From: Pseudonocardia sp. | GTDB lineage: Bacteria > Actinomycetota > Actinomycetes > Mycobacteriales > Pseudonocardiaceae | Assembly (NCBI GenBank): GCA_025465235.1 | Contig: JAODNO010000353.1 | Span: 1 to 32,424 of the forward strand | Direction of reading: 5' to 3' | Length of the DNA: 32,424 bases | Shown here: positions 1 through 24,018 of the stretch, one piece after another | Layout: each line of letters opens with the position of its first letter | Numbering within the stretch: position 1 is the first letter of the stretch | The notes under the pieces: model-generated | What the model was told of the DNA's origin: nothing | The model's input: only the letters and a program-made list of their open reading frames with translations | The model's database searches: none | Made by a program: the position numbers and the translations under genes

Positions 1-1274
1 ATCGGGACGGCGTCGCCCGTGATCTCCAGCTTGGGGTCGGCCAGCACCCGCTCGCGCAGGGACTCCGACACCCACAGCTGCTCGAGGTCGAGGGTGTTGC
101 GCATCCGGACCAGCGTGACCCCCCCGAGGTCGGACCGCCCGCAGGTGAGGATCGCCGCGGCGACGGTGCTGCGGTCCGTCGGCATCGCCATCGGCACCTG
201 GGCACGCTGCGGACCCCCGAGCCCCGAGGTCATCGCGTTGATGTAGACGGCGTGCAGGTCGAGCTTCTCGAGCAGGCGGAACGGCACGAAGTCGGCGAGA
301 CCCAGGCCGATGGCATTGCCGTGGGAGGCGTCGCTGACGTCCAGCACCGCGATGTTGGTGATGCGCGGCCGCTCGAACTCGGCACTCCCGCGGATCATCA
401 TCCGGCCGATGACGTTGGTGTCCATGCCGGAGCCGGAGACGTCCTTCCCCATCCGGTCGACCACGACCACGTCGATGTCGTCGAAGGGCAGGGTCGCCAT
501 CCGGCGCTTGGCGTCGGCGAGCAGCTCGGTCTCGACCGGCCCGCCGATGTCCTCGGCTCGCACCAGCTCGATCCTCGCCGCCCGGTCGCCGGCGTTCTCG
601 ATGATCGCCAGGCCGCCGAGCACCTTGCCGGTCTCCACGATCCGGCGGGCGACCCGCGGCACCCACACACCGAGGTTCGCGGGGCCGAACCGGTGGATGC
701 CCTCGGCGCCGCGCTGCTTCCCCAACCCGATCGCGACGATCTTGGCGACCCCGCTCTCGATCTCCCCGGAGAAGTCGGTGTGGGCCTTCACGCGGTTGAC
801 GGCGAGGATGCGGTCCGCCTTGGCCGCGTGGGCGTCGAGGTGCACGGCGGGGCCGCCGGGCACCCGCTCCAGCTCGACCGTCTCCATCGTCGCGTGGATC
901 GGCATGCCGAGGGACTCCTCGGTCATCCCGAGGTCGGCCAGCAGCTGAACCTGGCCGTCGGCGGTGGCCCCGCCGTGCGAGCCCATCGCGGGCACGACGA
1001 ACGGCTCTGCGCCGACCGAGCGCAGCCACTCCCCCGCAGCCCGCACCACCTCGCGCTTGTCGTGGATCCCGCGGCTACCGGCCGTGATCGCCACACTCAT
1101 GCCGGGGGTCACCCGCGAGCGCAGCGGCTCCAGCGCCGCGACGGTGGCCGCGGCGACATCGTCGATGCGCGTGGCGTCGAAGTCCTGCCGGACGGGGAGC
1201 AGCCGGGGGAACGGCGCATCGAAGCTCAGACCGCGCACGGCCTCGAACGGGCCGAGATCCTTCGTCGTCGTCAC
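1..1274 (-). CDS. larA-like: LarA-family nickel-pincer-dependent isomerase (DUF2088), C-terminus cut by window edge
   Basis: This is a LarA homologue, a family that racemises or epimerises 2-hydroxy acids through a nickel-pincer nucleotide (NPN) bound covalently to a lysine. About 424 residues are visible, close to the usual family length, so only a few C-terminal residues should be missing. The start is GTG at 1274, with GAGGGA overlapping the upstream pdxA2 stop 8 bases before it. MGSHGG is at residues 97-102 and GSRG at 67-70. Lys178 (GVAK) and His194 (GIHR) are 16 residues apart, the same spacing as L. plantarum LarA Lys184/His200, and His165 (VKAHT) is the likely equivalent of His174. 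It is the last visible gene of the lar/kinase/pdxA2 unit, 10 bases after pdxA2. The substrate is unknown. Lactate is unlikely given the sugar-acid kinase next door; a C4 aldonate C2-epimerase is my inference. Confidence 0.85.
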   Translation of the reverse strand, partial: MTTTKDLGPFEAVRGLSFDAPFPRLLPVRQDFDATRIDDVAAATVAALEPLRSRVTPGMSVAITAGSRGIHDKREVVRAAGEWLRSVGAEPFVVPAMGSHGGATADGQVQLLADLGMTEESLGMPIHATMETVELERVPGGPAVHLDAHAAKADRILAVNRVKAHTDFSGEIESGVAKIVAIGLGKQRGAEGIHRFGPANLGVWVPRVARRIVETGKVLGGLAIIENAGDRAARIELVRAEDIGGPVETELLADAKRRMATLPFDDIDVVVVDRMGKDVSGSGMDTNVIGRMMIRGSAEFERPRITNIAVLDVSDASHGNAIGLGLADFVPFRLLEKLDLHAVYINAMTSGLGGPQRAQVPMAMPTDRSTVAAAILTCGRSDLGGVTLVRMRNTLDLEQLWVSESLRERVLADPKLEITGDAVP

Positions 1275-1284
1275 AGCGATTCCC

Positions 1285-2280
1285 TCACGCCCTGGCAGCG
1301 GCGCGGGCCTGCGCCATCGCCGCCCCGACCGCGACGGCCTCGACGAGGCTGTCGGCGCCTGCTCGCCCCGTGCCGGCGATGTCGAAGGCGGTGCCGTGGT
1401 CCACGCTCGTGCGCACGATCGGCAGCCCGATCGTCGCGTTGACGCCCGTCTCGAAGCCGAGAACCTTGACGGCGATGTGTCCCTGGTCGTGGAACATCGC
1501 GATCGCCACGTCGAAGTCTCCCGCGACGGCCCGCCCGAACAGCGTGTCGGCAGGCCACGGGCCGCTGGCGGCGATCCCCTCCGCCTTCGCCCGCTCGATG
1601 GCGGGCGTGATCACCCGCGCCTCCTCGTCGCCGAACAGGCCGCCCTCACCGGCGTGCGGGTTGAGGCCCGCGACCCCGACGGACGGCTCGTCGATGCCCA
1701 TGTCGCGCAGCGCGGCGTGGGCCAGCCGGATCGTGGTCAGCACCCGCTCGGTGGTGACGCGGTCGAGCATCTGCCGGATACCGACATGGGTGGTGACGTG
1801 CACGACGCGGAGCTTCAGCGCGGTCAGCATCATCGCGAAGTCCGTGGTGCCGGTGAGGTCGGCGAGGATCTCGGTGTGGCCGGGGTAGGGGTGGCCGGCG
1901 AGCGCGATGGCCTCCTTGTTCAGGGGAGCGGTGACGATGCCGTCGATCTCACCGGCGAGCGCGAGGGCCACAGCACGCTCGACGCCCTCGAAGGCGATCT
2001 GCCCCGCCTCGGCGGAGACCTTCCCGATGGGGACGGCGACGTCGGACGGCACGGGGAGCACGTCGAGCGTCCCCGGCTCGAAGCGCGCCTCACCCGGAGT
2101 GGACACCTCGCGGAGCGCGGGAGCGTCCGGGACGACCGCAGCGGCGGATCGCAGCGCCCGGAGGCTGCCGATCGCGACCAGCCTCGCGACGTGGACCCGC
2201 GGGTCGACCGCCGCCTTCAGGGCGACCTCGGGCCCGATCCCGGCCGGGTCGCCGACCGTCAGGCCGAGCAGGGGCGTCAT
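1285..2280 (-). CDS. pdxA2: PdxA2-type 4-phospho-hydroxyacid dehydrogenase (4-hydroxythreonine-4-phosphate dehydrogenase family)
   Basis: The 331-residue product is a full-length member of the PdxA family of NAD-dependent, metal-requiring oxidative decarboxylases. The N-terminal VGDPAGIGPE signature lies at about residues 9-18, followed by GHTEIL, PHAGEGG, MFHDQGH and DHGTAFDIAG, which together carry the metal-binding histidines and the phosphate site. In vitamin B6 synthesis PdxA acts on 4-phosphohydroxythreonine. The PdxA2 subgroup, encoded beside DUF1537 kinases, converts D-threonate 4-phosphate (or a similar acid) to dihydroxyacetone phosphate and CO2. The ATG overlaps the kinase stop by 4 bases (ATGA, 2277-2280), so the two are probably translationally coupled. 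No other B6 gene is nearby, which favours the catabolic PdxA2 role over pyridoxine synthesis. Confidence 0.9.
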   Translation of the reverse strand: MTPLLGLTVGDPAGIGPEVALKAAVDPRVHVARLVAIGSLRALRSAAAVVPDAPALREVSTPGEARFEPGTLDVLPVPSDVAVPIGKVSAEAGQIAFEGVERAVALALAGEIDGIVTAPLNKEAIALAGHPYPGHTEILADLTGTTDFAMMLTALKLRVVHVTTHVGIRQMLDRVTTERVLTTIRLAHAALRDMGIDEPSVGVAGLNPHAGEGGLFGDEEARVITPAIERAKAEGIAASGPWPADTLFGRAVAGDFDVAIAMFHDQGHIAVKVLGFETGVNATIGLPIVRTSVDHGTAFDIAGTGRAGADSLVEAVAVGAAMAQARAAARA

Positions 2281-3353
2281 GTGCAGACCTCCAGTGCCTC
2301 CGCGGCGCGGCGCAGCGCGTCCTGCGCGCCGAAGCCGCCCGACTTCGTGACCACCGGAACCCGGCGGTCCCCCACCACCATCTCACCCTTCGGAAGGCCG
2401 GCGGCCACCTCGGACGTCAAGCGGAACTCGACGGCCCCGAGGGCCCTCACCACGGCGAGGGCGGTGGCGCCACCGGTCAGGACGAGCCCGGCGGACGGGG
2501 CGGCGCCGAGCACGGCCGTCACAACCCGCGCCAGGTCCTCGGCGAGCGCCGCCGCCCGCGGGCTGTCCGGCTCGACGTCGCCCGTGACCTCGCACGTCAG
2601 CACGACCCGCCCGCCTGCGCGCAGGGCGGCGGCCGCGGTGTCCACCGGGCTCGACGTGGCGCCCACCACGACGAGCTCGGCGCCACCGGCGAGGAGCAGC
2701 GCCACCTGCGCCCCGGTGGTCGCGTGCGGTGTCCCGGCGACGACGAGCACGCCGGTCGCCGGGTTGTCGGGGCCTGGAATGGGGCCCGCCCGGGGTACCA
2801 GCACGGCCGCGAGGGCACGGGACAGGCCCCCCGAGCCGACCGCTACGGACCCCTCGTCGACGACCCGGCGCGCGATCTCCACGAGGTCGTCGTCCGTCTC
2901 CGCGTCGACCACCAGGACACCGGGCGGGAAGTGGTCCGCAACCTGCTCGATCGTCGTCTCGCCGTGCACCACGAGAGCTCCGCCCCGGACCATCCGGCCC
3001 TGGCCGGGGAAGGCCGGGGTGGCGACCGCGCCGGCGCCGCGCCATGCGTCCAGAGCGATCGCGACGTCGGCATGCACCCTGCCGCGCAGGGTGGAGTCGA
3101 CTTTCACGAACAACATCTCGGCACCCCAGCCACGCACGCGGGAGACCGCAGCGCGCATGCGCTCCGCTGCCTCGGACGCGGGGCGCCAGCGGTTGTCGGT
3201 GAGCAGGGCGAGCACCTCGGCGTCCGGCGCCGACGTGTCGGACAGGGCGACGGAGACGGCCAGCCCGCGAGCGGCGAACGGGGCGGCGGCATCGGCGGCA
3301 CCGGTGAGGTCATCGGCTACGACGGCCAGGCGACGCGCAGTGCCGGGAGCCAC
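2277..3353 (-). CDS. Four-carbon acid sugar kinase, DUF1537 (OtnK/DtnK-like)
   Basis: The 358-residue product matches the two-domain DUF1537 kinase family, which phosphorylates C4 sugar acids (threonate, erythronate or their 2-oxo forms) at O4 with ATP. The N-terminal substrate domain shows ADDLTGAAD at about residues 13-21, then KVDSTLRG and PAFPGQGR. The C-terminal nucleotide domain shows VGSGGLSRAL, LTGGATA and TKSGGFG. The start is taken as GTG at 3353; a GGAGG sits about 11 bases upstream, which is slightly long, and no nearer start codon exists. It follows larC by 46 bases and overlaps pdxA2 by 4. A kinase directly followed by PdxA2 is the known D-threonate degradation pair (DtnK/PdxA2). 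The exact acid used here cannot be read from sequence. Confidence 0.92.
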   Translation of the reverse strand: MAPGTARRLAVVADDLTGAADAAAPFAARGLAVSVALSDTSAPDAEVLALLTDNRWRPASEAAERMRAAVSRVRGWGAEMLFVKVDSTLRGRVHADVAIALDAWRGAGAVATPAFPGQGRMVRGGALVVHGETTIEQVADHFPPGVLVVDAETDDDLVEIARRVVDEGSVAVGSGGLSRALAAVLVPRAGPIPGPDNPATGVLVVAGTPHATTGAQVALLLAGGAELVVVGATSSPVDTAAAALRAGGRVVLTCEVTGDVEPDSPRAAALAEDLARVVTAVLGAAPSAGLVLTGGATALAVVRALGAVEFRLTSEVAAGLPKGEMVVGDRRVPVVTKSGGFGAQDALRRAAEALEVCT

Positions 3354-3399
3354 TCGGGCGATGACCTCCGTCGGCCGTGGGGTGAGCTACGCACCGAGG

Positions 3400-4533
3400 C
3401 TAGGTTCGCGCTCTTTCCGATGTCAACGCGCGCCACGTGATCTCCCGCAGCGGCAGCCCGAGCGCCGCCGCGGCCGCGGCCACGTCGTCGTGCTCCGGCT
3501 TGGCGCCCCAGGGGCCGTGCTTGATCCTCACCGGATGCCCGTCGACGTCGACGGTCGTCGTGCTGCGGGGCAGTGCCGGGCGGTCGACGGTGCTGCGCCG
3601 CAGTCCGAGGCTCCCGGTCTCCGCGAACACGATCCGCTCGCAGTCCGCGACACGCTCGGGTGCGGCGAGCACGTGCACGGTGTGTGCCGGGCGGCCCTTC
3701 TTCATGACGATCGGCGAGAGCCATGCGTCCGCCGCGCCCGCCTCGAGCAGCTGCCCGACGAGGTGGCCGAGCACCTCGCCGGTGACGTCGTCCACATTCG
3801 TCTCGAGCAGCACCATCGTCGCGCCCGCGCCGACCGGTCCGCCCAGCAGCGCCTGCAGCACGTTGGCGCGGCCGGCGGGGTCCCGCCCACCGGCCCCGTA
3901 CCCGACGCCGCGCAGCGCCATCGCCGGCACAGGCCCGAAACGCGCGTCGGCGGCGACCAGCAAGGCGGCCCCGGTCGGTGTGACCGTCTCCCCGTCACCC
4001 GCCCCGGTCACCTGCGCGCCGACGGCCGCCAGCAGCGCCGCGGTGGCCGGCGCGGGAACCGGCAGGACGCCGTGGCGGGTCGAGACCGTGCCCGCGCCCA
4101 GGGCGAGCGGGCCGCAATGCACCTCGGTGACGTCGAGCAGGTGCAGCGCCGCCGCGACGCCCACGGTGTCGACCACGGTGTCCAGGCCACCGATCTCGTG
4201 CAGGTGCACGTCCGCCGGGTCCGTGTCGTGGATGCGCGCCTCCACCTCGGCGATCGCCCGCACGGCCCGGCAGGCCAGCGGGGCCTCCGCCTGCTCCACG
4301 TGCGCGAGCAGCGCGGCCGCCCGACGCTCGGTCGCCGTGTCGTGCACCGTCACCACGGCCCTGGTCGCGGCCACGCCCCCGCGCGTCACCCGCTCCGCGT
4401 CGAGGCTCCACCCGTCGAGGCCGGTGCGCGCCACGGCCGCGCGGACGCCGTCGAGCGGGGCACCCAGGTCAAGCAGCGCCCCGAGCAGCATGTCACCGGA
4501 GATCCCGCTGAACGGGTTGAGCCAGAGGATCAT
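3400..4533 (-). CDS. larC: Nickel-pincer cofactor biosynthesis protein LarC (nickel insertase), single uninterrupted ORF
   Basis: LarC is a CTP-dependent cyclometallase that inserts nickel into the dithiolated pyridinium mononucleotide to finish the NPN cofactor. The 377-residue product begins with the family's N-terminal motif (FSGISGDML at about residues 8-16), has HEIGG..D..VD near residues 115-125, and a histidine-rich C-terminal part with METNVDD-like (LETNVDD), MKKGRP and HGPWG..KPE..D motifs. In L. plantarum larC is split and needs a programmed frameshift; here both halves are in one frame with no interruption. The ATG at 4533 overlaps the larB stop (ATGA, 4530-4533). The longer upstream reading in this frame is antisense-free overlap with larB and lacks LarC homology, so the 4533 start is well supported. 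Confidence 0.95.
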   Translation of the reverse strand: MILWLNPFSGISGDMLLGALLDLGAPLDGVRAAVARTGLDGWSLDAERVTRGGVAATRAVVTVHDTATERRAAALLAHVEQAEAPLACRAVRAIAEVEARIHDTDPADVHLHEIGGLDTVVDTVGVAAALHLLDVTEVHCGPLALGAGTVSTRHGVLPVPAPATAALLAAVGAQVTGAGDGETVTPTGAALLVAADARFGPVPAMALRGVGYGAGGRDPAGRANVLQALLGGPVGAGATMVLLETNVDDVTGEVLGHLVGQLLEAGAADAWLSPIVMKKGRPAHTVHVLAAPERVADCERIVFAETGSLGLRRSTVDRPALPRSTTTVDVDGHPVRIKHGPWGAKPEHDDVAAAAAALGLPLREITWRALTSERART

Positions 4534-5195
4534 CGGCCGGCTGCCATCCGGTGCGCCGCCATCGCCGCCCCGAAACCGGAGTCGATGTTCACCACGACGA
4601 GCCCCGGGGCGCAGGAGCTGAGCATCGCGAGCAGCGGCGTGACGCCCTCGAACGACGCCCCGTACCCCACTGACGTGGGCACGGCGATCACCGGGCAGCC
4701 GACGAGCCCGCCCACCACGCTGGGGAGGGCGCCCTCCATCCCGGCGATGCAGATCACGGCGTCGGCCCCGGCCAGCAGCTCGACCTCGGCGAGCAACCGG
4801 TGCACGCCGGCCACGCCGACGTCCCGCAGCTCGCGGACGCCCAGCCCCACGGCACCGGCGACTGCTGCGGCCTCGGCAGCGATGGGCTGGTCGGAGGTGC
4901 CGGCAGACACGACCACGACGCCGAACGCCCGCTGCGGCGCGGGTCGCCACACGAGCAACCGGGCTGCGGGGTCGTACTCCCCCCCGGGAACAGCGGCGCC
5001 GACGGCAGCGGCGACGTCCTCGGTGAGCCGGGTCACGAGCACCGGGCCGTCGTTCGCGGCGAGCAGAGAGCGCACCACGCCGACGATCTGCCCGGGGGCC
5101 TTGCCGGGGCCGTAGACCACCTCGGGCAGGCCGAGCCGCCGCTCGCGCGCGGTGTCGGCCCGGGCGTAGCCGAGGTCCTCGAAGCCGTCCGTCAC
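4530..5195 (-). CDS. larB: Nickel-pincer cofactor biosynthesis protein LarB (NaAD carboxylase/hydrolase)
   Basis: LarB carboxylates nicotinic acid adenine dinucleotide at C5 of the pyridine ring and hydrolyses it, giving the first NPN intermediate. The 221-residue product has the short N-terminal region (DLGYARAD, LPEVVYG) and then the PurE-like domain: VVVSAGTSD at about 94-102, GMEGALPSVVGGL at 152-164, VPTSVGYGAS at 172-181 and VVNIDSGFGA at 201-210. Cys195 (LSSCAPG) is at the expected place of the cysteine that forms the NaAD adduct in L. plantarum LarB. The start is GTG at 5195; the ribosome site before it is weak, so coupling with larE, 16 bases upstream, is likely. It overlaps larC by 4 bases. 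Confidence 0.95.
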   Translation of the reverse strand: MTDGFEDLGYARADTARERRLGLPEVVYGPGKAPGQIVGVVRSLLAANDGPVLVTRLTEDVAAAVGAAVPGGEYDPAARLLVWRPAPQRAFGVVVVSAGTSDQPIAAEAAAVAGAVGLGVRELRDVGVAGVHRLLAEVELLAGADAVICIAGMEGALPSVVGGLVGCPVIAVPTSVGYGASFEGVTPLLAMLSSCAPGLVVVNIDSGFGAAMAAHRMAAGR

Positions 5196-5211
5196 AAGAG
5201 ATCGCTCATCT

Positions 5212-6042
5212 TCACGGGGTGGCGCGGGCCGGCATGCCGAGCAGGACGTTCATCCGGCCGCTGGCGAACCCCTGCAGGTCGAGGGCGCAGAAATCGAAGC
5301 CTGCCGCGCGTACGCCCGCGTCCAGTGCCCCGCGCAGCTCCGCCGCCCGGGGCACCTCGTCGGCCGGGACCTCGACCCTGGCCACCGCGCCACCGGCGTG
5401 GGCTCGCACCCGGCAAACGGGAAACCCCAGCTCGCGCACCGCCATCTCGGCCCGCTCGATACGGCGCAGCAGCTCCGGCGTGACCGGGTCGCCGTAGGCC
5501 ACCCGCGAGGCGAGGCACGCCGCGGCCGGCTTGTGCGCCGTGGCCAGGCCCATGGCCTCGCTGACCCGGCGCACCTCGGCCTTGCCGAACCCGGTGTCGA
5601 CGAGCGGCGCGATCGCCCCGCGCGCGGCTGCGGCGCGCTGGCCGGGCCGGTGGTCGCCGAGGTCGTCGAGGTTCGTCCCGAGCGCGATGCGGGCGCCGGC
5701 CAGCGTGGCGAGGGGAGCGAGCGCGTCGAACAACGCCGACTTGCAGTGGTAGCAGCGGTCGCCTGCGTTGGCGACGTACGCGGGGCGGTCGAGCTCGTCG
5801 GTGTCGACCTCGACGTGCGCGATGCCACGGCCTCGAGCGAATTCCCGCGCGGCCGCACGCTCGGCACGGGGCAGGCTGGCCGAGACCGCGGTGACCGCCA
5901 CGGCCCGATCGCCGAGCTCTTCCGCGGCGACCGCGGCCACCAGCGCCGAGTCGACCCCTCCCGAAAACGCGACGAACAGTCGCTGCTCGCTGCGCAACCG
6001 ATCCCGCAGCGCGGCGAGCAGGGTGTCGACCGCCGGCTCCAT
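5212..6042 (-). CDS. larE: ATP-dependent sacrificial sulfur transferase LarE
   Basis: LarE activates the carboxylates of the larB product with ATP and donates sulfur from its own cysteine, leaving dehydroalanine; it is consumed in the reaction. The 276-residue product has the PP-loop SGGVDS at residues 27-32, CYHCK at 97-101, GTNLDDLGDHRPG at 122-134 and CLASR beginning at Cys176. Cys176 has the same number as the sulfur-donating cysteine of L. plantarum LarE, which indicates the sacrificial type rather than a 4Fe-4S, three-cysteine type. The start is ATG 6042 with AGGTG 5 bases upstream; GTG 6048 is an alternative. It is the first gene of the minus-strand lar unit and is divergent from the STAS gene at 6251. 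Confidence 0.94.
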   Translation of the reverse strand: MEPAVDTLLAALRDRLRSEQRLFVAFSGGVDSALVAAVAAEELGDRAVAVTAVSASLPRAERAAAREFARGRGIAHVEVDTDELDRPAYVANAGDRCYHCKSALFDALAPLATLAGARIALGTNLDDLGDHRPGQRAAAARGAIAPLVDTGFGKAEVRRVSEAMGLATAHKPAAACLASRVAYGDPVTPELLRRIERAEMAVRELGFPVCRVRAHAGGAVARVEVPADEVPRAAELRGALDAGVRAAGFDFCALDLQGFASGRMNVLLGMPARATP

Positions 6043-6250
6043 GCGCACCTGCGACACTTTAGGTGGGCACCATCCACGGCCACCACCGGACGACCGGAGC
6101 TGCGCGCGCCGGCACACCGAGGCGCGGGGGTAAGGTCGTTCATGACGTTGCCGTGATCCCGGCCGTCCGCCCCGGGGTCCGTGCGGAGTTCCGGACGGTC
6201 TTCCGCGATCCGGCCCGTACAGCATCCGACCAGCGCCGGAGGTGGAACAG
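6043..6250. promoter_or_regulatory. Divergent intergenic region between larE and the sigF operon
   Basis: These 208 bases must carry promoters for both the lar unit (leftward) and the sigF operon (rightward). I could not identify a convincing -35/-10 pair on either strand. A 7-base inverted repeat, CCGTCCG at 6163-6169 and CGGACGG at 6192-6198, is present and could be an operator or a chance hairpin. GGAGG at 6238-6242 is the ribosome site for the STAS gene. No classic GTTT...GGGTA SigF promoter was found. Confidence 0.4.
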
Positions 6251-6649
6251 ATGGCCGAACCGGCACCGCTCGGGTCCGAATCGCCCGCGTCCGAGGCGGC
6301 GGGAGATTTCCTCGAGGCCGCGATGACCCGGCCCCGGGCCGACGCGGCGGTCCTCGCGGTACAGGGAGAGGTCGACACCCTCACCGCGACGTTGTTCGCC
6401 GATGCCGTGGCCGAGCTGATGGACGCCCCCGAGACCACGCTCGTCGTCGACCTCACCGGTGTGAAGTTCCTGGCCTCCAGCGGCCTGGCCGTCCTCATCC
6501 AGGCCGCGCACAGGGCCGAGGAGCGCAATGCGAGACTTCGACTGGTGGTCACCACCCGGGCGGTCCGGCGGCCGCTGGAGATCACGGGCATCGACCAACT
6601 CTTCGACATGCACAGCGACGTGCACGACGCGATCGGCGGCGACGATTGA
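6251..6649 (+). CDS. STAS-domain anti-sigma factor antagonist (RsbV/SpoIIAA-like)
   Basis: The 132-residue protein is a single STAS domain of the anti-anti-sigma type. In its unphosphorylated form such a protein binds the anti-sigma factor and frees the sigma factor. The central phospho-switch region is intact: DLTGVKFLASSGL at residues 67-79 with Ser76/Ser77 as the expected phosphoacceptor. About 30 residues before the beta-sheet core look disordered. The ATG at 6251 has GGAGG 8 bases upstream; a GTG 9 bases earlier would overlap that site and is less likely. The next two genes are the anti-sigma factor and SigF, so this is the upstream member of a partner-switching operon. Confidence 0.88.
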   Translation: MAEPAPLGSESPASEAAGDFLEAAMTRPRADAAVLAVQGEVDTLTATLFADAVAELMDAPETTLVVDLTGVKFLASSGLAVLIQAAHRAEERNARLRLVVTTRAVRRPLEITGIDQLFDMHSDVHDAIGGDD

Positions 6650-6717
6650 TCCACCGGATCCCGGGTACCAAGATGACCGATCACGTTCACCGCACGACCG
6701 GAAGGAGACCCGGCAGC

Positions 6718-7158
6718 GTGTCCGATCTGGACGGTTCCTCGCCCGCCGAGACGCTCGACGGGGCTTCGACCGTGGAGGTCCGGACGTCGGCCAGCGCCGC
6801 GCTGATCCCCACGATCCGCGCCGTCGCCTCCGACCTCGCCGCACGAGCCGACTTCGACCTCGACGCCATCTCGGACCTGCGGATGGCCGTGGACGAGGCC
6901 TGCGCCACGCTGGTCGACGTCGCCGCGCCGTCGTCGACGCTGCAGTGCACCTTCCTGGTGCGGTCCGAGCGCATCGAGGTGCACGCCCAGGTGCGGGCCG
7001 GGCACCCCGACGCCGTGGTCTCCACCGACACGTTCGGGTGGCGGGTGCTGCAGACCCTCGCCGACGACGTCGCCGTGCACCACGAGCCGGGCTCCGGCGG
7101 CGACGGGCCCACGGTCGGTATCCGGTTGGACAAGCGCTCCGGCGACCTACCCCGGTGA
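6718..7158 (+). CDS. rsbW: Anti-sigma factor, RsbW/UsfX-like GHKL ATPase-type protein
   Basis: The 146-residue protein is predicted to hold SigF inactive and to phosphorylate STAS antagonists. The fold pattern of the GHKL kinase is visible: an N-terminal strand-helix part, then RMAVDEACATLVD at about residues 59-71 in the N-box position. The usual asparagine after EAC is absent (EACAT instead of EACTN), and no clear GxGxG lid is seen, as in the mycobacterial UsfX type. ATP binding or kinase activity may therefore be weak. The start is GTG 6718 with AGGAG 10 bases upstream; an in-frame ATG at 6673 lacks a ribosome site. The stop overlaps the sigF start (GTGA, 7155-7158), so production of the sigma factor and its inhibitor is coupled. 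Confidence 0.82.
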   Translation: MSDLDGSSPAETLDGASTVEVRTSASAALIPTIRAVASDLAARADFDLDAISDLRMAVDEACATLVDVAAPSSTLQCTFLVRSERIEVHAQVRAGHPDAVVSTDTFGWRVLQTLADDVAVHHEPGSGGDGPTVGIRLDKRSGDLPR

Positions 7159-7934
7159 CCAGGGCCGATCCCGAGTACGGCCACCTCGCTCCCCTGCTCG
7201 AGCGCTACTCGTCCCTGGAGCCGGACCACCCCGACCGCGAGCCGCTGCGGGAGGAGCTCGTGCGGGGCTTCCTTCCGGTGGCCCAGCACATCGCCCGCCG
7301 GTTCTCCAACCGGGGCGAACCCCTGGACGACCTCGTCCAGGTGGCGACGGTCGGCCTCATCAACGCCATCGACCGGTACTCCCCGGAGCGTGGCAGCGAC
7401 TTCTTCTCCTTCGCCGTCCCCACGATCACGGGCGAGGTCCGCCGGCACTTCCGCGACCTCGGCTGGTCGATGCGGGTACCGCGCAGGCTCAAGGACCTGC
7501 ACGTCTCGATCAACGGCGCCGTCTCGGAGCTGTCGCAGAACCTCGGCCGGGCGCCGAAGCCCAGCGAGATCGCCGAGCAGCTCGGCGTCCCGGTCGCTGA
7601 TGTGCTCGAGGGACTCGAGGCCTCCGAGGCCTACCGCAGCTCGTCGCTCGACGAGATGCTCTCGTCCGAGCAGGGCAGCGCCACGGTCGGCGAGCTGGTC
7701 GGCGAGGCCGACGCCGAGCTCGACCGTGTCGACTTCCGGTTGGCGCTGCGACCCGTGTTGTCCGAGCTGGCCGAGCGTGAGCGCACCATCGTGCTGCTGC
7801 GGTTCTTCGGCAACATGACACAGACGCAGATCGCCGACCGCGTCGGCATCTCACAGATGCACGTCTCCCGGTTGCTGGCGCAGACCCTCGATCGCCTCCG
7901 CACGCGACTGGACCCCGAGACCCGCGTCAGCTGA
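7155..7934 (+). CDS. sigF: SigF/SigB-family stress sigma factor
   Basis: The 259-residue protein is a group 3 sigma-70 factor. Region 2 contains DDLVQVATVGLINAIDRY at about residues 52-69 and the promoter-melting FSFAVPTITGEVRRHFRD segment. Region 3 follows (LGRAPKPSEIAEQLG). Region 4 ends in a helix-turn-helix, MTQTQIADRVGISQMHVSR, near residues 220-238. The length fits SigF of actinobacteria. The GTG start overlaps the anti-sigma stop by 4 bases. The operon order STAS antagonist, anti-sigma, sigma resembles rsbV-rsbW-sigB. It likely controls general stress or stationary-phase genes; no SigF-type promoter was visible upstream, so autoregulation cannot be claimed. Confidence 0.94.
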   Translation: MTRADPEYGHLAPLLERYSSLEPDHPDREPLREELVRGFLPVAQHIARRFSNRGEPLDDLVQVATVGLINAIDRYSPERGSDFFSFAVPTITGEVRRHFRDLGWSMRVPRRLKDLHVSINGAVSELSQNLGRAPKPSEIAEQLGVPVADVLEGLEASEAYRSSSLDEMLSSEQGSATVGELVGEADAELDRVDFRLALRPVLSELAERERTIVLLRFFGNMTQTQIADRVGISQMHVSRLLAQTLDRLRTRLDPETRVS

Positions 7935-22072: not shown

Positions 22073-22150
22073 ATGAGCGAGCCCGCGAGCGAGTCATCGA
22101 CACAGCGCCCGCGCGAAGCGCCGGCCGAGCGCAGCGAGGGCGAGCGATGA
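22073..22150 (+). CDS. Possible 25-codon upstream ORF coupled to pncB; repeat-like sequence
   Basis: A short frame reads [20 protein letters not shown] and then SEGER, ending in a TGA that overlaps the pncB start (ATGA, 22147-22150). The product is only S, E, R, P, A-rich and is not a protein domain I know. The sequence is built from GAGCGAG/GAGCGCAGCGAG motifs, and its first seven bases ATGAGCG (22073-22079) recur at 22147-22153, the pncB start. It may be a translated leader, or simply a dispersed repeat that lies before the gene. Confidence 0.35.
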
Positions 22151-23448
22151 GCGGCAGTCCGTCATCCGCCGGGGTCAGCACCGCACTGCTGACCGACCGG
22201 TACGAGCTGACCATGGCGGCGGCAGCACTCGCCGACGGCACCGCGCAGCGCCGCTGTGTGTTCGAGGTCTTCGCCCGCAGGCTCCCCGAGGGCCGCCGCT
22301 ACGGCGTGGTGGCCGGCACGGACCGGCTGCTGGAGTCGATCGAGCGGTTCCGGTTCGGCGACGAGGAGCTGGCGGCGCTCGCCGAGGTCGTCGACCCCGA
22401 CACCCTGGCCTGGCTGGCCGACTTCCGCTTCTCCGGCGACGTGGACGGCTACCCGGAGGGCGAGCTGTACTTCCCCGGCTCGCCGGTCCTCACCGTCAGC
22501 GGCACCTTCGCCGACACGGTGCTGCTGGAGACGCTGGCCCTGTCGATCCTCAACCACGACAGCGCGATCGCCGCGGCCGCCTCCCGGATGGTGACGGCCG
22601 CGGCGGGTCGTCCGATCATCGAGATGGGGTCACGCCGCACGCATGAGGCCGCGGCTGTCGCCGCCGCCCGCGCGGCCTACCTCGCCGGGTTCGCCGCCAC
22701 GTCGAACCTCGAGGCCGAACGCCGCCACGGCATCCCCAGCACCGGCACCGCCGCCCACGCCTTCGTTCTCCTGCACGACGACGAGCTGGGCGCGTTCAAG
22801 AGCCAGGTGGCCGCGCTCGGCCCGGACACCACGCTGCTCGTCGACACCTACGACATCCGCCGGGGCATCGAGCTGGCGATCGAGGCCGCCGGGACGGGGC
22901 TCGGTGCGGTGCGCATCGACTCCGGCGACCTCGGCGTGCTCGCCAGGCAGGCCCGCGACCAGCTCGATGCGCTCGGGGCCACGAACACGAAGATCGTGCT
23001 GTCCGGCGACCTCGACGAGTACGCGATCGCCGCACTGCGCGCCGAGCCCGTCGACTCCTACGGCGTCGGCACGTCCGTGGTCACCGGGTCCGGCGCATCG
23101 ACCGCGGGCATGGTCTACAAGCTGGTGGAGGTCGACGGCAGGCCCGTGGCCAAGCGCAGCGCCGCGAAGGAGTCGCGCGGGGGACGGAAGTCGGCGATGC
23201 GGCGCCACAAGCCGACGGGCACGGCCATCGAGGAGGTCGTGTACCCGGTCACGGCCCCGCCGGAGGCCGGGCCGCACGACCGGGTGGTGCCGGTCCCGCT
23301 GATGCGCGGCGGCAAGCGGGTGGCGGACCTGCCGACGCTCGAGCAGTCCCGCGAGCACCTGCGGGCCGCGCTCGTGTCCGTGCCGTGGGAGGGGCTCAAG
23401 CTCTCCCGCGGCGAGCCCGCGCTCCCCACGGTGTTCGACGGAGGCTGA
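22147..23448 (+). CDS. pncB: Nicotinate phosphoribosyltransferase
   Basis: The 433-residue enzyme joins nicotinate to PRPP, giving nicotinate mononucleotide in the Preiss-Handler NAD salvage route. [10 protein letters not shown] at residues 15-24 is the N-terminal signature. [12 protein letters not shown]...[23 protein letters not shown] and VLSGDLDE follow in the family order. The C-terminal FDGG tail is usual. The ATG overlaps a 25-codon upstream frame. It is followed after 3 bases by the nicotinamidase gene, so the pair forms a nicotinamide salvage operon. Confidence 0.95.
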
Positions 23449-23451
23449 CCG

Positions 23452-24018
23452 ATGACGCGCGCCCTGATCGTCGTCGACGTGCAGAACGACTTCTGCGAAG
23501 GCGGTTCGCTCGGCGTGGACGGCGGATCCGCGGTGGCGGCCGCGATCTCAACCCGACTGCAGGCCGCAGGCCGGGAAGCCCGCTGGGACCACGTCGTGGC
23601 GAGCCGCGACCATCACGGCGACCCCGGCGGCCACTTCTCCGACGCCCCCGACTTCGTCGACTCGTGGCCGCCGCACTGCCGTCGTGGCACGCCCGGCGCG
23701 TCCTTCCACCCGGAGCTCGACGTCGCCCGGATCGAGGCGGTGTTCGACAAGGGCCACGACGCCGCGGCGTACTCGGCCTTCGAAGGCACCGAGCCGGGCG
23801 GGTGGGGGCTGCGCGACTGGCTGCGCGCCCACGACGTCGACGCGCTGGACGTGGTGGGTATCGCCACCGACCACTGCGTCCGGGCCACCGCGCTCGACGC
23901 GGCCGCGGCCGGGTTCTCGACGACGGTGCTCCTCGACCTCTGCGTGGGCGTGGCCCCGGAGACCACCGAGCGCGCGATCGCGCAGATGCGGGCTGCGGGC
24001 GTCGAGCTCGTCGGGTAG
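23452..24018 (+). CDS. pncA: Nicotinamidase
   Basis: The 188-residue isochorismatase-fold enzyme deamidates nicotinamide to nicotinate, and in mycobacteria activates pyrazinamide. The catalytic triad is Asp9 (VVDVQNDF), Lys100 (FDKG) and Cys142 (TDHCVRAT). The metal site reads Asp53, His55, His61 and His75, each shifted by four from M. tuberculosis PncA Asp49, His51, His57, His71. ATG 23452 is 3 bases after pncB, so both steps from nicotinamide to NaMN are encoded together. It is convergent with the thioesterase gene, 7 bases away. Confidence 0.95.
   Translation: MTRALIVVDVQNDFCEGGSLGVDGGSAVAAAISTRLQAAGREARWDHVVASRDHHGDPGGHFSDAPDFVDSWPPHCRRGTPGASFHPELDVARIEAVFDKGHDAAAYSAFEGTEPGGWGLRDWLRAHDVDALDVVGIATDHCVRATALDAAAAGFSTTVLLDLCVGVAPETTERAIAQMRAAGVELVG

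Follow-up and report, generated by a model that had tools for sequence, protein, structure and literature searches.

The stretch of DNA analysed here, referred to below as the window, is the entire 32,424-base contig JAODNO010000353.1 from a 6.8-Mb draft genome, 89% complete, of Pseudonocardia sp., an actinomycete of soil; judged by the LarA protein, its nearest named relatives are Pseudonocardia species. Six genes lie together on the minus strand at one end of the window (3-6042) and are transcribed from position 6042 toward position 1. In order of transcription, they are larE (5212..6042), encoding the sulfur transferase of nickel-pincer nucleotide (NPN) biosynthesis; larB (4530..5195), for biosynthesis of the NPN cofactor; larC (3400..4533), for insertion of nickel into it; a gene for a DUF1537 (four-carbon acid sugar) kinase of a shortened subfamily, 358 amino acids long (2277..3353); a pdxA2-like gene for a 4-phospho-acid 3-dehydrogenase of the PdxA family (1285..2280); and a larA homologue of NPN-dependent isomerase group 22 (LarAH22, hereafter LarA-22; 3..1274), which is predicted to be a 2-hydroxy (sugar) acid C2-epimerase and whose 3' end is missing at the contig end.

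The larE and larB genes are separated by 16 bases, larC and the kinase gene by 46, and pdxA and larA by 10, while larB and larC (with the larC start placed at the ATG overlapping the larB stop) and the kinase gene and pdxA each share a 4-base ATGA overlap. No terminator-like site was found in positions 1-6400, a weak test given that shuffled sequence averages 0.7. The NPN biosynthesis set is complete, as larE (TIGR00268, 293 bits, cut-off 150), larB (NF033503, 258.5 bits, cut-off 175) and larC (TIGR00299, 160.7 bits, cut-off 90; NF052512, 129.6 bits, cut-off 50) all exceed the NCBIfam cut-offs. A preliminary description of this DNA had already placed six genes on a single strand with short gaps or 4-base overlaps and named larE, larB and larC, and both statements are borne out. 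The larA gene has no stop codon, although its NCBIfam profile is matched up to position 389 of 392; with the contig stopping inside it, whatever follows in the operon was invisible to that first reading.

Against the NCBIfam model NPN_iso_grp_22 (NF052515), the LarA homologue scores 483.7 bits (cut-off 400) in a nearly full-length match. A sequence search of the PDB with this protein alone gave nothing at E 0.01 and a profile search gave unrelated chains only; structure comparison recovered the LarA fold. Residues H100, H165, K178 and H194, kept in 65 of 65 aligned LarA-22 rows, correspond to H108, H174, K184 and H200, so that the catalytic histidine pair is retained, as are the lysine and the histidine for the cofactor. 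This mapping runs through an hhalign alignment to the second LarA of the same genome (probability 66%) and then through the PDB alignment of the latter; R68 was equated with R75 by position only, being two residues off in the hhalign alignment. That alignment ends at residue 291, and the comparison of specificity signatures is thus restricted to LarA_Lp positions 175/176, where lactate racemases carry Phe/Phe and gluconate epimerases Glu/Val (accessible text of PMC11770544). The window protein has Thr/Asp there, which differs from the lactate racemase and GntE subgroup signatures and from all those listed in the same text, namely for lactate racemases, gluconate epimerases and hydroxyglutarate racemases. 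The second LarA homologue of the genome (425 amino acids, locus L091) has as its best PDB match a broad-substrate lactate racemase, 9eia.

Within the LarA superfamily, for about half of which a predicted function exists (PMC11770544, accessible portion), the closest comparison is the D-gluconate 2-epimerase GntE (LarAH19/20), a LarA homologue that uses NPN and is reported to invert an aldonate at C2 (PMC7583248). The window LarA resembles it in being an NPN-family homologue with a predicted aldonate C2 flip, but falls under another group model, has Thr/Asp at positions 175/176 where GntE has Glu/Val, and is partnered by a C4-acid-type kinase and PdxA2. If the NCBI group number follows the numbering of PMC7583248, as assumed here, then none of the 13 LarA homologues tested according to the accessible text of that study is numbered 22, and the accessible literature on LarA homologues yielded no assay of a group 22 member. 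NF052515 is a numbered group without a named substrate; the subset described here has a defined gene partnership. LarA homologues epimerize 4-deoxythreonate and 4-deoxyerythronate at low rates (PMC11770544, Table 2), which makes C4 chemistry feasible; threonate and erythronate themselves are missing among the reactions in the accessible part of that report.

The kinase contains the Pfam domains SBD_N and NBD_C and has the DUF1537 fold: its AlphaFold2 (AF2) model (predicted local distance difference test, pLDDT, 88.6; predicted template modelling score, pTM, 0.88) finds the six DUF1537 PDB entries as its top structural matches. About 40 residues of SBD_N are lacking, as in the eight orthologous genomes aligned. 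An assembly artefact was considered as the origin of the short form and rejected, since 12 orthologous rows from these eight genomes miss the same stretch. The dehydrogenase matches Pfam PdxA with 358.5 bits and exceeds the TIGR00557 cut-off; its closest PDB chains, 2hi1 and 6e85, are both of PdxA2 type, and one is named D-threonate 4-phosphate dehydrogenase. This adjacent pair, here joined by a 4-base overlap, recalls the DtnK-PdxA2 pathway for D-threonate, reportedly described by Zhang et al. in 2016, in which a DUF1537 kinase acts with PdxA2. The window departs from that pathway in adding a LarA homologue and the NPN genes, and in its shortened kinase, which scores far below the DtnK cut-off. 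The C4 pathway itself is already known. In the open-licence literature, supplementary tables aside and as far as its accessible text goes, nothing connects a kinase-PdxA2 pair for threonate/erythronate, or UxaA, to LarA or NPN. Read as a vitamin B6 salvage pair, the two enzymes would phosphorylate and oxidize 4-hydroxythreonine and stand beside larA by chance, an explanation that is close to refuted: pdxJ, the user of the PdxA product, was not found in any of the 37 genomes searched, the 89% complete Pseudonocardia draft included, which makes a B6 role unlikely, and the linkage with LarA recurs in three clades.

Close relatives were surveyed in 60 genomes (the source genome and 59 others), 11 of which carry LarA-22, that is, the source genome and 10 relatives. 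The short kinase has close homologues (64-74% identity) in six of the 59 relatives; all six are among the 10 bearers of LarA-22 and have the genes side by side, so that the kinase-PdxA-LarA trio is present in 6/10. Eight weaker DUF1537 rows (30-47% identity) in seven of the genomes were taken as other kinases. Five of the 10 (G004, G008, G011, G016 and G018) hold the complete six-gene cluster, G026 has kinase-pdxA-larA and no larEBC in the stretch, and in G059 LarA-22 is accompanied by a dehydratase and a short-chain dehydrogenase/reductase (SDR), with a kinase-pdxA pair on a separate contig. Farther away, Geodermatophilus obscurus (L025) and an Actinomycetales metagenome-assembled genome (L023) possess kinase-pdxA-larA as adjacent genes, together with a nearby L-threonate-dehydrogenase-like gene (in L025, 275.7 bits against a cut-off of 350) and a second, full-length DUF1537 kinase, both of them enzyme types that occur in known C4-acid routes. 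In Rugosimonospora (L027), larA is present, and the kinase, pdxA and a GarD-like gene are all missing from the fetched stretch.

The relatives also reveal what the contig end conceals. A GarD/UxaA-type dehydratase is the gene after larA in all nine Pseudonocardia relatives with LarA-22, and farther downstream come an IlvD/Edd-type dehydratase (9/9) and an SDR (8/9). The one GarD/UxaA-type protein tested by profile has the Pfam GD_AH domains and scores 396.8 bits with TIGR03248, below the cut-off of 730.85; the remaining ones were identified by tblastn with it. The six genes do form one unit, as first described, but that account of the operon was incomplete, and co-conservation of all six was seen only within Pseudonocardia (the source genome and the five relatives above), the kinase-PdxA-LarA trio being what recurs widely. 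The presence of this dehydratase after larA recalls UxaA/GarD operons, with the difference that the substrate would here be reached through a nickel epimerase rather than through a uronate isomerase and a reductase. It also invites another explanation, in which LarA serves the GarD/UxaA-like dehydratase by epimerizing an aldarate or a C5/C6 aldonate, and the kinase and PdxA2 are merely co-regulated with it, their own task being the breakdown of a C4 acid that is unrelated or lies downstream. In favour of it, a GarD-like gene adjoins larA or is one gene off in 10/10 of the LarA-22-bearing relatives, against 6/10 for kinase-pdxA.

A sample of the phylum gave LarA-22 matches in 53 of 296 genomes, 34 of them above cut-off. 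In the Rubrobacter family, whose LarA is about 45% identical to that of the window, kinase and pdxA lie near LarA-22 in nine of the 12 loci fetched (exceptions: L063, L072 and L074), with the trio present in Rubrobacter indicoceani, and in 23 of the 26 genomes with both families the distance between a DUF1537 gene and LarA-22 is no more than 6 kb. That comparison covered 38 DUF1537 and 51 LarA-22 matches; the 15 DUF1537 genes other than the 23 linked ones are farther away or on other contigs, and one of the 23 (G352) is probably of the other kinase type. KdgT-like transporters are encoded between larA and the kinase gene in L062 and L069, the latter having a GntP-type transporter in addition. 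In two Rubrobacter-family genomes, the kinase gene beside larA is in pieces (L065:4411-5570; L066:12935-13270), through decay or assembly error. In R. indicoceani (L071/L072), a GarD-like gene some 7 kb upstream of the kinase fits a LarA that works for a dehydratase; none was detected in the fetched stretches of the other Rubrobacter-family trio clusters or of the five haloarchaeal ones described below, which argues the other way.

In a haloarchaeal sample drawn around one LarA-22-bearing genome, LarA-22 was found in 27 of 79 genomes, and L102, with a sugar-acid transporter gene (KdgT-like/GntP-type set) in or beside the cluster, is the sole kinase-pdxA-larA locus among the 20 fetched. LarA-22 matches also occur in 113 plasmid records; among eight examined from the best-ranked haloarchaeal ones (H1-H7 and H11), four hold the trio, two from Natronococcus, in the order kinase-pdxA-larA, and two from Haladaptatus, arranged larA-kinase-cupin-pdxA with a sugar ATP-binding cassette (ABC) transporter next. 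Two of the five haloarchaeal trio loci, those of Haladaptatus, are thus reordered, and the same members in an altered order argue for function and not mere common descent. The opposite arrangement, LarA-22 with UxaA/altronate dehydratase genes and no kinase-pdxA, is seen in Sporomusa, Sulfitobacter and one spirochaete, and again suits an epimerase devoted to the dehydratase. In Marinovum, the neighbours of LarA-22 are of tripartite ATP-independent periplasmic (TRAP) transporter and 2-keto-3-deoxy-6-phosphogluconate (KDPG)-aldolase type.

Could the group 22 protein be a racemase of a simple 2-hydroxy acid, placed here to be with the cofactor genes? Gene neighbourhoods helped with just a part of the LarA homologues tested (PMC7583248), several group 22 loci have no sugar-acid partner (Salinigranum; families f42 and f43), and one Rubrobacter-family paralogue adjoins LutB/LutC-type lactate-oxidation proteins. 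We nevertheless consider such a racemase very improbable, because most of the partners that can be recognized belong with sugar acids (dehydratases of the UxaA/GarD, enolase-family and IlvD types), the transporters nearby are of GntP, KdgT, TRAP or tripartite tricarboxylate and sugar ABC types, positions 175/176 are Thr/Asp and not the Phe/Phe of lactate racemases, and the genome already has a conventional second LarA. The second LarA-22 paralogue beside LutB/LutC-type proteins (L061:5081-10065 and other Rubrobacter-family loci), which is also accompanied by an HpcH/HpaI aldolase, points to a different hydroxy acid, perhaps oxidized after racemization.

A tree of 64 LarA-22 sequences places the 19 kinase-linked ones in three separate clades, and at least four gains or losses of linkage are needed to account for its well-supported branches; since support is weak at depth and a number of rows are long, we make no claim about the number of origins. 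The co-conservation of kinase, PdxA and LarA that had been anticipated for this locus is therefore upheld, by these three clades and by named records across bacteria and archaea. One residue follows the linkage in part: position 167, equivalent to F176 of LarA_Lp, is Asp in 23/23 kinase-linked LarA proteins, the window protein included, and Lys, Ala or Ser in the three UxaA-linked ones from outside the Mycobacteriales. This sets the window LarA with the kinase-linked forms, contrary to what a LarA serving only the dehydratase would lead one to expect, yet as a correlate of kinase linkage Asp167 is suggestive only, the sequences not being independent. With the gene counts on one side and this residue and the dehydratase-free trio clusters on the other, we judge a LarA that works for the dehydratase alone to be a possible but somewhat unlikely explanation.

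Taken together, the genes, their linkage and conservation, the active-site residues and the folds are established, and from them we infer the reaction, its substrate and its direction. LarE, LarB and LarC, whose role in NPN synthesis is family knowledge, would make the nickel-pincer cofactor and load it into LarA-22, which, to judge from the conserved two-histidine active site, would invert C2 of a polyhydroxy acid by proton-coupled hydride transfer. DtnK/PdxA2 act on D-threonate (2S,3R), from which D-erythronate (2R,3R) differs at C2 only. The 2S,3R arrangement recurs at the attacked carbons in the substrates of the dehydratases, D-altronate for UxaA and, at the end concerned, galactarate for GarD. 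Since both kinds of LarA-22 partner need the same 2S,3R arrangement, LarA would supply it from the 2R,3R epimer, in the four-carbon case by converting D-erythronate to D-threonate. Following DtnK/PdxA2 chemistry, the DUF1537 kinase would then convert D-threonate to its 4-phosphate, and PdxA2 would oxidize C3 with loss of CO2 to give dihydroxyacetone phosphate. To supply the GarD/UxaA-type dehydratase, LarA may in addition act on longer acids, for example D-ribonate or D-allonate. That an NPN-loaded LarA-22 inverts C2 of a sugar acid for the kinase and PdxA2, and maybe for the dehydratase too, is our best overall explanation, and we rate its chances as about even; D-erythronate and D-threonate are the leading, unproven, substrate pair.

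The substrate series could also be another one. The kinase and PdxA might be specific for D-erythronate or for L-series acids, with LarA working in reverse or on L-threonate and L-erythronate, L-threonate being a breakdown product of plant ascorbate. Since the C3 configuration on which PdxA works is that of D-threonate, an L pair would require an altered PdxA; the nearest solved PdxA structures are moreover of PdxA2 type, with the D-threonate 4-phosphate dehydrogenase among them. On the side of this option are the distinct short subfamily of the kinase, the LtnD-like genes in two loci (L023 and L025) and the L-threonate routes with LtnD and OtnK known in bacteria (PMC12540250, accessible text), and all in all it appears unlikely.

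Several observations weigh against an epimerase that feeds the kinase and PdxA2. Part of the acid-binding domain of the kinase is missing, and both enzymes fall short of the D-threonate models, the kinase with 161.3 bits against 450 for the D-threonate kinase DtnK (NF047819) and PdxA with 360.3 bits against 583 for the PdxA2 D-threonate-4-phosphate dehydrogenase (PRK03371). The labels of DUF1537 kinase and PdxA2 first given to the pair stand, with the correction that the kinase is of a shortened form; the scores leave D-threonate as no more than a candidate substrate. Three Pseudonocardia (G022, G030 and G034) keep larEBC, larA and the dehydratase without kinase and pdxA, which indicates that LarA has a use without the pair and that C4 acids may not be its only or main substrate; a gain of kinase-pdxA, rather than its loss from these species, is less likely, as they are nested among carriers. 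Asp167 is non-diagnostic, since 16 of 54 unlinked rows have it as well, including kinase-less members of the Pseudonocardia clade and some haloarchaea. Most LarA-22 loci sampled elsewhere lack the trio: neither kinase nor pdxA is in the stretch for 8/8 loci of four other actinobacterial families, 19 of the 20 haloarchaeal loci are unlinked, four of the eight plasmid records are without the trio, and kinase-pdxA is not beside LarA-22 in any of six spirochaete loci.

Some further neighbours deserve mention. A STAS-domain protein and a sigma-70-family factor (window 6242-7934) are encoded divergently from larE. At 22147-24018, nicotinate phosphoribosyltransferase-like and isochorismatase-family genes adjoin; nicotinate is an NPN precursor, and the position 16 kb away may be chance. 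In Salinigranum marinum, nikR, for a nickel-responsive regulator (L128:9684-10112), is the third gene after LarA-22, and an aldehyde ferredoxin oxidoreductase gene adjoins LarA-22 in three spirochaete loci (L029, L031 and L113). An Nramp-like membrane protein recurs near LarA-22 (L016, L019, L021, L025, L061, L064-L066, L068, L071 and L072); the DPGN metal motif is absent from the six sequences checked (five genomes), and the cargo may be an organic acid rather than a metal. Finally, a ketol-acid-reductoisomerase-like (KARI-like) gene near larA in four of 33 clustered loci (L062:9987-10988, L067:11418-12416, L102:12436-13440 and L103) possibly encodes an oxidoisomerase of a branched sugar acid. 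Apionate, whose route would include such an oxidoisomerase, was considered as a substrate on this account and is kept as a side possibility; the C3 oxidized by PdxA has to bear a secondary alcohol.

More broadly, and tentatively, LarAH group 22 may be a cross-domain family of sugar-acid C2-epimerases with the nickel-pincer cofactor acting as a stereochemical adapter, which would convert 2R,3R aldonates to the 2S,3R form for two unrelated systems, kinase/PdxA2 on C4 acids and UxaA/GarD on longer ones, with the kinase pair joined more than once in bacteria and archaea and both branches combined in one operon in Pseudonocardia. With a trio shared by bacteria and archaea and a few named substrates to try, group 22 becomes directly testable as soon as NPN-loaded protein is at hand. 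Oxidized C4 sugars are common in soil and plant residues; if the proposal is true, a nickel enzyme would gain a place in their use, and both C2 epimers could be used in a redox-neutral way instead of by the dehydrogenase-isomerase route.

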